Shown here: piece by piece, positions 19,276 to 22,696 of the stretch | Position numbering within the stretch: position 1 is the first letter of the stretch | How the letters are laid out: each line of letters opens with the position of its first letter | Origin: Halorubrum aquaticum | GTDB lineage: Archaea; Halobacteriota; Halobacteria; Halobacteriales; Haloferacaceae | DNA: 64,000 nt | Direction: 5' to 3' | Assembly (NCBI RefSeq): GCF_900113615.1 | Contig: NZ_FOPZ01000017.1 | Span: 1-64,000 of the forward strand | The notes under the pieces: generated by a model | The model's input: only the letters and a program-made list of their open reading frames with translations | What the model was told of the DNA's origin: nothing | Database searches by the model: none | Program-made: the position numbers and the translations under genes

Positions 19276-20883
19276 TCACGTCTCGCTCGGTAGCGTCACG
19301 ACGACCTCGTTGCCGCCCTCCTCGCGGATCCGGAAGTCGATCGCGCCGTCGGCGTTCTCGACGATCCAGCGGGCCATCCACAGCCCGAGCCCGGAACTGT
19401 GGTTCAGTTGGTCGATGGGTTTCGTCCCGGTCAGGATCTCCCGTTCGTCGATCGGGATCGGCGGACAGCGGTCGAGCACGCGCAGGACCGCCTCGTCGTC
19501 GCCGTTCTCCAGGACGACGTCGACGCGCGGGTCCGTCCGTTCGGCGTGGACCACCGCGTTCTCGACCAGTTCGACGAGGACCATCCCCACGTCGTCGGTC
19601 GCGACCGCGGACACCCCGTCCTCGACGTCGACCCGGATCGTCGCTTCCCCGTACGTCTCCTCGAGGCCGTCGATCTCCCGACGGACGATCCGCGAGAGGT
19701 TCCGACGCTCCGCCTCGGTCGACGCGGTGAGCGCGTCGACGACGGTCTGTTGTTTGTCGATCTTGCTACAGAGCCGGTTGACGATCCGCTGGACCCGCTC
19801 GAGGATCTCGCCGTCGAGGCCGTCGCCGTCCGAACCGTCGTCCGCACCGTCACCGTCCGCACCGCCACCGTTCGCACCGTCACCGTTCGCATCATTACCG
19901 TCCACCCGCAGCATCTCGATCCATCCGGCGATCGCGTTGAGGTCGTTCCGCATCGTGTGCCGAACGAGGTGGTTCACCGTCTCGAGCTGGCGTTCACGGT
20001 GTTTCTGGGCGGTTATCTCCTGGGCGACGCCGACGAGGCCGATCGTCCGGTTCGAGTCGTCGCGCAGGGGCACCTTCGAGGTGAGAAACCACCGGTCGCT
20101 CGTCGGGTAGTACTCCTCCTTCTCGAGGATCGACTCCCCCGTTCGGAGCACCGACCGATCGTCCAGATACGGTTCGATCCCCTCCTCGTCCGGGACGACC
20201 CCGTCGATGTCGCGTTTCCCGAGGTACTCGTCGCTGAGCCGATGGATCCGTCGTCCGACGAGCGCCTCGCTCACCATCACGTTCCGGGCAGCCCGGTCCT
20301 TCACGAACATGTGAAGCGGGATCTCGGTGAACAACTGGTCGAGCACTCGGACCTTCCACTCGTCGAGGTCGACGTTCGGATCGGGAGCCGAGGAGTCGTT
20401 CCCCGACTCGCGGTCCGCCGAGGCGTCATCGAGTCGGCGGACGAAGTCGGGGTCCACTCGCGGCGATCGCGGCGGGATGGACCGCCGGACCGCGTCGTCG
20501 ACTCGCTCCGCGACGGTGACCGCGTCGTCCGCTTCCGATCGGACCGGGACGACGGCGTCGAACCCGGATTCGACGGCTTCGACGGGGACCGTTCCGTCGT
20601 CGACCGGAACGACGAGGACGACCGGCGGGGGATCGACGCGGCCGGCGAGCGTCTCGAGGAGGTCCACGGCGGTCCCGTCGGCCAGCCGAAAGGCCGTGAC
20701 CAGACAGTCGACCGTCGAGACGTCCCGCTCCGCGAGCGCCGCGATCGACGGGAGCGTCTCGACTCGGTCGACCGATCGGTCACGGTCCGCCGCCCATGGA
20801 CCGAGGAACTCGTCCAGATCGCCCGGGAGGTGCGCGATCTCGATCCGCGGGCCCGGCGGCGGATCCTCGGCGGATGTTTTCAT
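19276..20883 (-). CDS. PAS-domain histidine kinase with degenerate receiver-like N terminus
   Basis: A 535-residue cytoplasmic kinase. Residues 1-135 resemble a response-regulator receiver, but the strand where phospho-Asp is expected reads CLVTAFRLADG, lacking the Asp. A PAS domain follows (about 165-300; LDQLFTEIPLHMFVKDR, then VPLRDDSNRTIGLVGVAQEIT). The phosphoacceptor His is in VRHTMRNDLNAI. The helix pair is interrupted by a low-complexity Asp/Gly/Asn/Ala stretch encoded by 19825-19905. The ATPase domain has VELVENAVVHAE and SGLGLWMARWIVE. The ATG at 20883 was chosen; an in-frame start nine codons upstream overlaps the promoter. No response regulator lies nearby. Ligand unknown. Confidence 0.88.
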   Translation of the reverse strand: MKTSAEDPPPGPRIEIAHLPGDLDEFLGPWAADRDRSVDRVETLPSIAALAERDVSTVDCLVTAFRLADGTAVDLLETLAGRVDPPPVVLVVPVDDGTVPVEAVESGFDAVVPVRSEADDAVTVAERVDDAVRRSIPPRSPRVDPDFVRRLDDASADRESGNDSSAPDPNVDLDEWKVRVLDQLFTEIPLHMFVKDRAARNVMVSEALVGRRIHRLSDEYLGKRDIDGVVPDEEGIEPYLDDRSVLRTGESILEKEEYYPTSDRWFLTSKVPLRDDSNRTIGLVGVAQEITAQKHRERQLETVNHLVRHTMRNDLNAIAGWIEMLRVDGNDANGDGANGGGADGDGADDGSDGDGLDGEILERVQRIVNRLCSKIDKQQTVVDALTASTEAERRNLSRIVRREIDGLEETYGEATIRVDVEDGVSAVATDDVGMVLVELVENAVVHAERTDPRVDVVLENGDDEAVLRVLDRCPPIPIDEREILTGTKPIDQLNHSSGLGLWMARWIVENADGAIDFRIREEGGNEVVVTLPSET

Positions 20884-21008
20884 ATATCCAACACGAGTGT
20901 GACACGGCACACAGCGGCATAAAACGCCCGAATGAGCCCATCAGATCCCGGTCTCGCCGCAATTCGTGAAAACAGTTAATCGATCCCGAGATAACGTTAG
21001 AATCGATC

Positions 21009-21376
21009 GTGAAGAACTCAGCAGCCGACGACGTGGTCGACGAGATGCTCGACGGGATGATCGCGGCACACCCGGACCGACTCCGCAGGCTTCCGGACAC
21101 GCAGGTACCGGTGCGCGAGGACGGCCCGGTCGACGGAAAGGTCGCGATCGTCACCGGCGGCGGGAGCGGTCACGAACCCACGCACGCGGGATACATCGGC
21201 GACGGCATGCTCGACGGGGCGGCCGCGGGCGGCGTCTTCTCCTCGCCGACCGCCGACGAGTTCGAGGAACTGATCGCCGCCTGCGACGGCGACGCGGGCG
21301 TCCTCTGTGTGATCGAGAACTACGAGGGCGCGTGATGAACTTCGAGACGGCCATCGAGCTCGCCGAGATGGAGGGC
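21009..21376 (+). pseudogene. dhaK: dhaK remnant (dihydroxyacetone kinase subunit), frameshifted and truncated
   Basis: From a GTG at 21009 the frame encodes the N-terminal third of DhaK: DDVVDEMLDGMIAAHPDRL, KVAIVTGGGSGHEPTHAGY, GAAAGGVFSSPT, then VIENYEGA and a stop at 21333-21335. The next DhaK residues continue in another frame (MNFETAIELAEMEG, to about 21375). Restoring one base near 21331 would join the pieces as NYEGDVMNFETAIEL. Homology then ends abruptly. The catalytic His of DhaK, further downstream, is missing, so it is inactive. In Haloferax this subunit works with DhaL and the PTS protein DhaM; none is present here. Confidence 0.85.
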
Positions 21377-21445
21377 CCGCCCGACCGACACGTCCGCGTC
21401 GAAGCCGTTGACCGTCTTGACGAGCTTCGAGGCCGGTCTCGCGTG
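21377..21445 (-). pseudogene. ptsH: ptsH (HPr) fragment in inverted orientation
   Basis: On the minus strand, 23 codons starting at 21445 read HARPASKLVKTVNGFDADVS then VGR. This is the phosphorylation-site segment of HPr, whose consensus is GLHARPA followed by a helix and FDADV-like residues; the first His corresponds to the phospho-His. Codons upstream (S, P, Y, stop) are unrelated, and downstream the frame runs into dhaK sequence. It is therefore an orphan scrap, joined tail to tail with the dhaK remnant. Confidence 0.7.
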
Positions 21446-21550
21446 TGAAGGGTATTATACTCTCGTCCGCTTTCTCGGGAGTCGCCGTCCGTTCCCGGAT
21501 GGAACCGCCGGATCTCGGGGGATTTTCGTGCTCCTCCGTCTGTCGGAACC

Positions 21551-22696
21551 ATGAGCCGGACACGAAGCGGCAACGACCGGTACGACGCGATCGTCGTCGG
21601 CGTGGGCGGCGTCGGCAGCGCGACGACCTACGAGCTGGCACGGCGCGGCCTCGACGTGCTCGGGATCGAGCGGTACGACGTGCCCCACGCGATGGGCTCC
21701 TCACACGGGAGCACCCGGATCATCCGGAAGGCCCAACAGGAGGGTCCGGAGTACGTGCCGCTCGTCGAGCGCGCCTACGAGCGCTGGCGCGACCTCGAGG
21801 AGCGGACCGGCCGCGACCTCCTCACCGTCACCGGGTCGGTCCACGCGGGCGCGCCGGGAACGGACGTGGTCGCGAACGCCCGCGAGGCGTGTGACGCCCA
21901 CGACATCGAGTACGAGGACCTCTCCGGCGACGAGGTCACCGAGCGATTCCCCGGCTACGACCTGCCGTCCGACTTCGAGGCGGTCTTCCAGCCCGAGGGC
22001 GGGTACCTCGACTGCGAGCGCTGCGTGACCGCCCACGTCGAGGCGGCCCACGCCGAGGGGGCGACGGTCCGCGCCCGCGAGCGGGTCATCGACTGGTCGG
22101 AGACGGGCGACGGCGTCCGGGTCCGCACGGACAAGGGTCGCTACGAGGCGGACGAGCTCGTCGTGACGGCCGGGGCGTGGACCGCCGACCTGCTCCCGTC
22201 CGTCGCCGACGACGCGGTTCCCGTCCGCGCGCTCATGGCGTGGCTCCAGCCGGAGGAGCCCGAACTGTTCTCGCCCGATCGCTTCCCGGTGTTCGTGCTC
22301 CGCGGCGAGGACGGCGGCGGCTACGGCTTCCCGGTCCACGACGTGCCCGGGTTCAAGTTCGGGTACTCCGGCGACCACCGCGAGGTCGTCGATCCCGACC
22401 GGATGGACCGCGAGCCGACCGCGGCCGAGGAGGAGCTTCACCGCCGCTTCGCGGAGGAGTTCTTCCCGGCCGGTGCGGGCCCCACCGTCGCGTTGCGGAC
22501 CTGTATCCAGTCGTACTCCTCGGACGAGGACTTCGTGCTCGGTCGGGTGCCGGGGTACGACTCGGTCACCGTCGGCACCGGCTTCACCGGCCACGGCTTC
22601 AAGTTCGCGAGCGCCACCGGCGAGGTCCTCGCCGACTTCGCGACCGAGGGCGAGACCGACATCGACGTCTCGACGCACTCTATCGACCGGCTCTGA
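21551..22696 (+). CDS. N-methyl-amino-acid oxidase-like flavoenzyme (SolA/monomeric sarcosine oxidase family)
   Basis: A 381-residue FAD enzyme. The dinucleotide fold is YDAIVVGVGGVGSATTYELARRG at the N terminus, followed by GIERYDVPHAMGSSHGSTRI, the sarcosine-oxidase-family motif. Near the C terminus RTCIQSYSSDEDFVLG places a Cys where these enzymes bind FAD covalently, and TVGTGFTGHGFKFA closes the FAD site. It should oxidise an N-methyl or secondary amino acid with release of formaldehyde and hydrogen peroxide; the natural substrate is not known. Annotated elsewhere as N-methyl-L-tryptophan oxidase on similarity alone. It follows the dhaK/ptsH relic by about 100 bases with no coupling. Confidence 0.85.
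   Translation: MSRTRSGNDRYDAIVVGVGGVGSATTYELARRGLDVLGIERYDVPHAMGSSHGSTRIIRKAQQEGPEYVPLVERAYERWRDLEERTGRDLLTVTGSVHAGAPGTDVVANAREACDAHDIEYEDLSGDEVTERFPGYDLPSDFEAVFQPEGGYLDCERCVTAHVEAAHAEGATVRARERVIDWSETGDGVRVRTDKGRYEADELVVTAGAWTADLLPSVADDAVPVRALMAWLQPEEPELFSPDRFPVFVLRGEDGGGYGFPVHDVPGFKFGYSGDHREVVDPDRMDREPTAAEEELHRRFAEEFFPAGAGPTVALRTCIQSYSSDEDFVLGRVPGYDSVTVGTGFTGHGFKFASATGEVLADFATEGETDIDVSTHSIDRL

Follow-up and report, generated by a model that had tools for sequence, protein, structure and literature searches.

Dihydroxyacetone Phosphorylation in Haloarchaea

Growth of Haloferax volcanii on dihydroxyacetone (DHA) falls by 83% when glpK is deleted and by 33% when dhaKLM is deleted, and is abolished only when both are removed (PMC3863723). 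The glycerol kinase GlpK is the main DHA-phosphorylating enzyme in this organism, ranking above DhaKLM, and the distribution of DhaKLM across the Halobacteria is already known to be patchy (PMC3863723). The systems closest to the locus described here are the intact haloarchaeal DhaKLM kinases with a dedicated EI/HPr pair, exemplified by HVO_1544-1546 of H. volcanii and by the dhaKLM-ptsIH clusters of Halorubrum.

Within the 64,000-nucleotide stretch of Halorubrum aquaticum DNA that was analysed (hereafter the window), a remnant of such a cluster occupies the same syntenic site as the Halorubrum clusters. Over a 303-bp stretch it shares 91-94% DNA identity with the dhaK genes of intact clusters. 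However, DhaK has been reduced to ~120 codons and HPr to 23, and DhaL, DhaM and EI are gone. We read the locus as a non-functional scar left by a single repeat-associated deletion of dhaKLM-ptsIH, through which the PEP-dependent DHA kinase was lost and for which GlpK probably substitutes, and we assign this reading a probability of about 0.93.

Remnants of dhaK and ptsH

The 5' remnant of dhaK lies on the plus strand from 21009 to ~21375-21378 and was delimited by profile matching and by alignment to five intact orthologues. The translation of 21009-21332 matches Pfam Dak1 with an E-value of 6e-34 over profile positions 1-93 of 313. NCBIfam dhaK1 (TIGR02363) is matched over positions 8-109 of 329 with 134 bits, well short of the full-length match above the curated cut-off of 406 that marks a functional DhaK, and the gene is therefore truncated. 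Alignment shows that one base has been lost between 21330 and 21331 (GGGCGACGTG in the relatives, GGGCGCGTG in the window), as a result of which the frame stops at a TGA at 21333-21335. The codons 3' of this frameshift (NFETAIELAEMEG) stand in another frame and are still dhaK-like up to ~21376. Compared with the relatives, the remnant also has GTG in place of the ATG start codon and a net loss of 6 bp in codons 3-7. Its active site is incomplete: in the IKNYEGDVMNF motif the lysine of IKNYEG is replaced by glutamate and the aspartate codon is lost through the frameshift, and everything after codon ~125 has been deleted, including the covalent-DHA histidine, which lies beyond that codon. The first-pass annotation had described this stretch as the first ~120 dhaK codons with a one-base deletion near 21331 and a cut at ~21376, and both the Dak1 match and the alignment bear this out.

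Adjoining the dhaK stump, the minus strand carries an internal remnant of ptsH (21377-21445). Its 23 codons (HARPASKLVKTVNGFDADVSVGR) match PTS-HPr at about positions 14-36 of 81 with an E-value of 1.2e-5, and are the sole match to HPr in the whole genome. The phospho-His motif HARPAS characteristic of HPr is retained; the first 13 codons and all those beyond codon ~36 are missing, leaving neither a start codon nor a complete ~85-residue HPr domain (PF00381 / NF041319). A match of only 23 codons is nonetheless far beyond chance, since the DNA is ~80-92% identical over ~70 bp to the real ptsH genes of the relatives and lies at the expected distance from dhaK. The NGFDAD spelling of the remnant is common to Halorubrum cibi. 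The earlier proposal of an HPr phospho-His segment on the minus strand beside the dhaK stump, which hinged on a significant HPr match for these 23 codons, holds at this E-value.

Are the missing parts encoded elsewhere in the genome? The assembly is a draft of 40 contigs with 99.5% completeness. A whole-genome search for DhaK returned the truncated Dak1 match at 21009 and no other, a search for Dak2 (DhaL) gave no match above the cut-off, a search for EIIA-man/DhaM gave no match at all, and the search for enzyme I recovered PEP synthase as the sole PEP-utilizer_C protein. Full-length copies of dhaKLM and ptsH, which the first-pass annotation had advised seeking outside the scar, were thus not found in this near-complete assembly. 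With no other DhaK or HPr, and no DhaL, DhaM or EI, the genome has lost both the PEP-dependent DHA kinase and the EI/HPr chain that served it.

An intact cluster might still exist in the cell if the junction were an assembly collapse or the frameshift a read error, and it is true that the genome is a draft and that the junction, known from the assembly alone, falls at a short repeat. However, neither dhaL, dhaM and ptsI nor a second dhaK or ptsH occurs anywhere in the assembly, several independent lesions affect both remnants, and the junction lies in the middle of a contig. An artefact of sequencing or assembly is therefore very improbable.

The Ancestral Cluster and Its Deletion

The intact locus is found in five close relatives: G061 (Hrr. 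cibi), G011 (Hrr. rubrum), G027 (Halorubrum sp. 48-1-W), G020 and G063. In all five, dhaK-dhaL-dhaM on the plus strand face ptsI-ptsH on the minus strand, and the gene families of the cluster were confirmed by profile in G020. HPr has the same orientation relative to dhaK as in the window and lies ~3.7 kb downstream of it. The cluster is flanked on the left by a universal-stress-protein gene and on the right by an N-methyl-tryptophan-oxidase-like gene, as is the scar. In the window, the right synteny marker is an intact gene for an N-methyl-L-tryptophan oxidase-like FAD enzyme (21551-22696, plus strand; NCBIfam PRK11259, 442 bits, above the cut-off), and a PAS/histidine-kinase-like gene (19276-20910, minus strand; Pfam PAS_4 and HATPase_c, tblastn) served as the left one. 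The locus thus combines the features of a deletion scar, namely disrupted frames, orthologues that are intact at the corresponding site of sister species, and the lack of an intact copy in the rest of the genome.

The first-pass annotation had correctly seen the scar of a PTS-linked dha locus but derived it, from the opposite strands of the dhaK and HPr remnants, by inversion plus deletion of an ancestral one-strand dhaKLM-ptsH operon. This second part does not stand. The same convergent order was seen in the remaining intact Halorubrum loci inspected, so that ptsI and ptsH lie opposite dhaKLM in every one examined; G040, which belongs to a different family of the order, likewise has dhaKLM with an antisense ptsH. 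As ptsH is natively antisense to dhaK, deletion alone yields the observed orientation and no inversion is needed. Together with the collinear flanking synteny, this leaves an inversion scarcely credible.

The breakpoint of the deletion (junction A) falls within a short direct repeat at 21375-21383, as placed by alignments and distances. Alignment of both arms shows dhaK-like sequence to its left (GAGATGGAGG...) and ptsH-like sequence to its right (...ACCGACACGTCC). In most relatives the tract at which the switch occurs reads GCGCGACCG in dhaK and GCGCGGCCG in ptsH (GCGCGRCCG), with one mismatch between the two repeats, and this holds for the nearest relative, G061. In G027 the two tracts are identical over 10 bp (GGCGCGACCG). 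The tract in the window itself carries two private base changes. Random pairs of breakpoints share at least 8 bp by chance in 0.08% of trials and at least 10 bp in ~0.01%. In the five relatives, the dhaK and ptsH tracts are spaced 3,723-3,930 bp apart, and the shared tracts and this spacing of ~3.7-3.9 kb together indicate that a single deletion accounts for both the join and the loss of dhaL, dhaM and ptsI. Given the one mismatch in the repeat of most relatives, mediation by the repeat is something we infer.

We therefore favor the following course for a single deletion. The ancestor would have carried the convergent cluster typical of the genus, with dhaK-dhaL-dhaM facing ptsI-ptsH. One deletion of ~3.7-3.9 kb would have taken out dhaL, dhaM and ptsI together with the greater part of dhaK and ptsH, probably through recombination or slippage between near-identical direct repeats of ~9-10 bp located at dhaK codon ~125 and ptsH codon ~36. 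Both stumps were damaged further, in whichever order, by small indels and by another deletion, ~50 bp long. Alignment to the relatives places this second deletion at 21446/21447 (junction B), where the HPr start codon is gone and a remnant of the ptsHI upstream region persists on the minus strand (21446-21469) with its TATA-like box (GAGTATAATAC).

How long ago was the cluster lost? A three-gene tree places G061 nearest to the window's genome (support 80). Of the private changes in the dhaK remnant over 303 bases, 4 are nonsynonymous and 7 synonymous, which does not set it apart from functional copies, and its pairwise dN/dS of ~0.1 is also like theirs. As no clear relaxation of constraint is seen, either the loss is recent or a test on 303 bases is underpowered, and a recent loss on the branch leading to the window's genome is the best reading. 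Continued expression of the 108-codon N-terminal DhaK frame in some useful role, such as that of a fragment resembling a regulatory subunit, would agree with the low dN/dS and with the frame-preserving net indel near the start, but is most implausible given the altered start and upstream region, the Lys to Glu change in conserved IKNYEG, the lack of any remaining DhaL or DhaM partner, and a low dN/dS that recent loss explains.

Recurrent Loss Within Halorubrum

An intact dhaK is missing from 15 of the 53 Halorubrum genomes searched: 14 of them gave no DhaK match at all, and the fifteenth is that of the window, with its remnant only. Presence of the cluster was mapped on a tree of 32 of these 53 genomes, which includes a subset of the intact ones, counts G010 (divergent dhaKL) as absent and ignores recombination. 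On this tree presence is scattered: it takes 12 changes, where shuffled labels give 11.0, and well-supported branches force at least nine.

When the other genomes lacking dha were searched for short dha/pts fragments, G019 and G023 alone gave clear remnants; all other matches were weak and scattered, as expected of G+C-rich coding DNA. In G019 (L192, G019:C76, bases ~2400-2460), the first ~11 dhaK codons (MKKLINDPDDV) are joined to antisense ptsH codon ~58 at a 6-bp CGACGT common to both parents. This scar resembles that of the window in that a dhaK 5' end is joined to ptsH by deletion across a short repeat. G023 (L047, G023:C3:440757-440846) retains only the first ~31-39 ptsH codons, without dhaK and beside unrelated genes, and is another separate loss. 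In G014 the cluster has been lost cleanly, with no remnant. A loss shared between G014 and the window's genome was considered and rejected, as G014 groups with the cluster-bearing G020 (support 100), and its loss is therefore separate. In G019, G023 and G014 the same cluster has been lost as in the window, with other endpoints and at other places in the tree, so that these losses are independent of the window's.

The scar in the window is in itself ordinary decay, and its value is that of an example in which the mechanism by which a redundant carbon-uptake route was lost can be read; recurrent deletion within the genus is the sole part that goes beyond ordinary pseudogenisation. We would put at even odds the proposal that deletions in Halorubrum recur at dhaKLM/ptsIH, where repeated dhaK-ptsH joins across short repeats discard all five genes at once and glpK takes care of DHA. 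The scars turn the known patchy distribution of haloarchaeal DhaKLM into observed losses with identifiable breakpoints, in which the dedicated EI/HPr chain is lost along with the DHA kinase. A narrow literature search returned no description of deletion scars of the dhaK/ptsH type in Halorubrum.

A different arrangement occurs in G010 (L046, G010:C179:8132-9061), whose dhaK-dhaL pair is divergent (59% and 47% identical). The 15-kb stretch that holds it gave no match to dhaM, ptsI or ptsH, and the genome as a whole gave none to HPr. This pair perhaps encodes a DHA kinase that is ATP-dependent or of different origin.

DHA Phosphorylation Without DhaKLM

The glycerol kinase encoded in the window's genome is full-length (721 bits against a cut-off of 590). 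The first-pass annotation had concluded that DHA phosphorylation was lost in this lineage, a conclusion that the analysis does not support: with glycerol kinase intact, and with GlpK dominant over DhaKLM in H. volcanii (PMC3863723), such a loss does not follow from deletion of the cluster. By analogy with H. volcanii, the strain probably phosphorylates DHA with ATP via GlpK.

Neighboring Features

The PAS/histidine-kinase-like gene to the left of the scar is shared by G020, G061 and G063, survives only as a C-terminal remnant in G011, and was not found in G027 and G014. Besides the dha cluster, this gene too is unstable at the site. The genome G063 (279443-base contig) is labelled Halobellus captivus, and falls inside the Halorubrum clade by synteny, sequence and genus grouping; the label is possibly a mislabelling or an outdated name.

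Beside the scar and upstream of the oxidase gene lies a near-invariant element of ~34 bp (21493-21526, plus strand; CCCGGATGGAACCGCCGGATCTCGGGGGATTTT), identified from alignments to the relatives. It contains CCGG half-sites, persists in each of the seven species of the clade, including those in which adjoining DNA has been deleted, and is possibly an operator or leader element.
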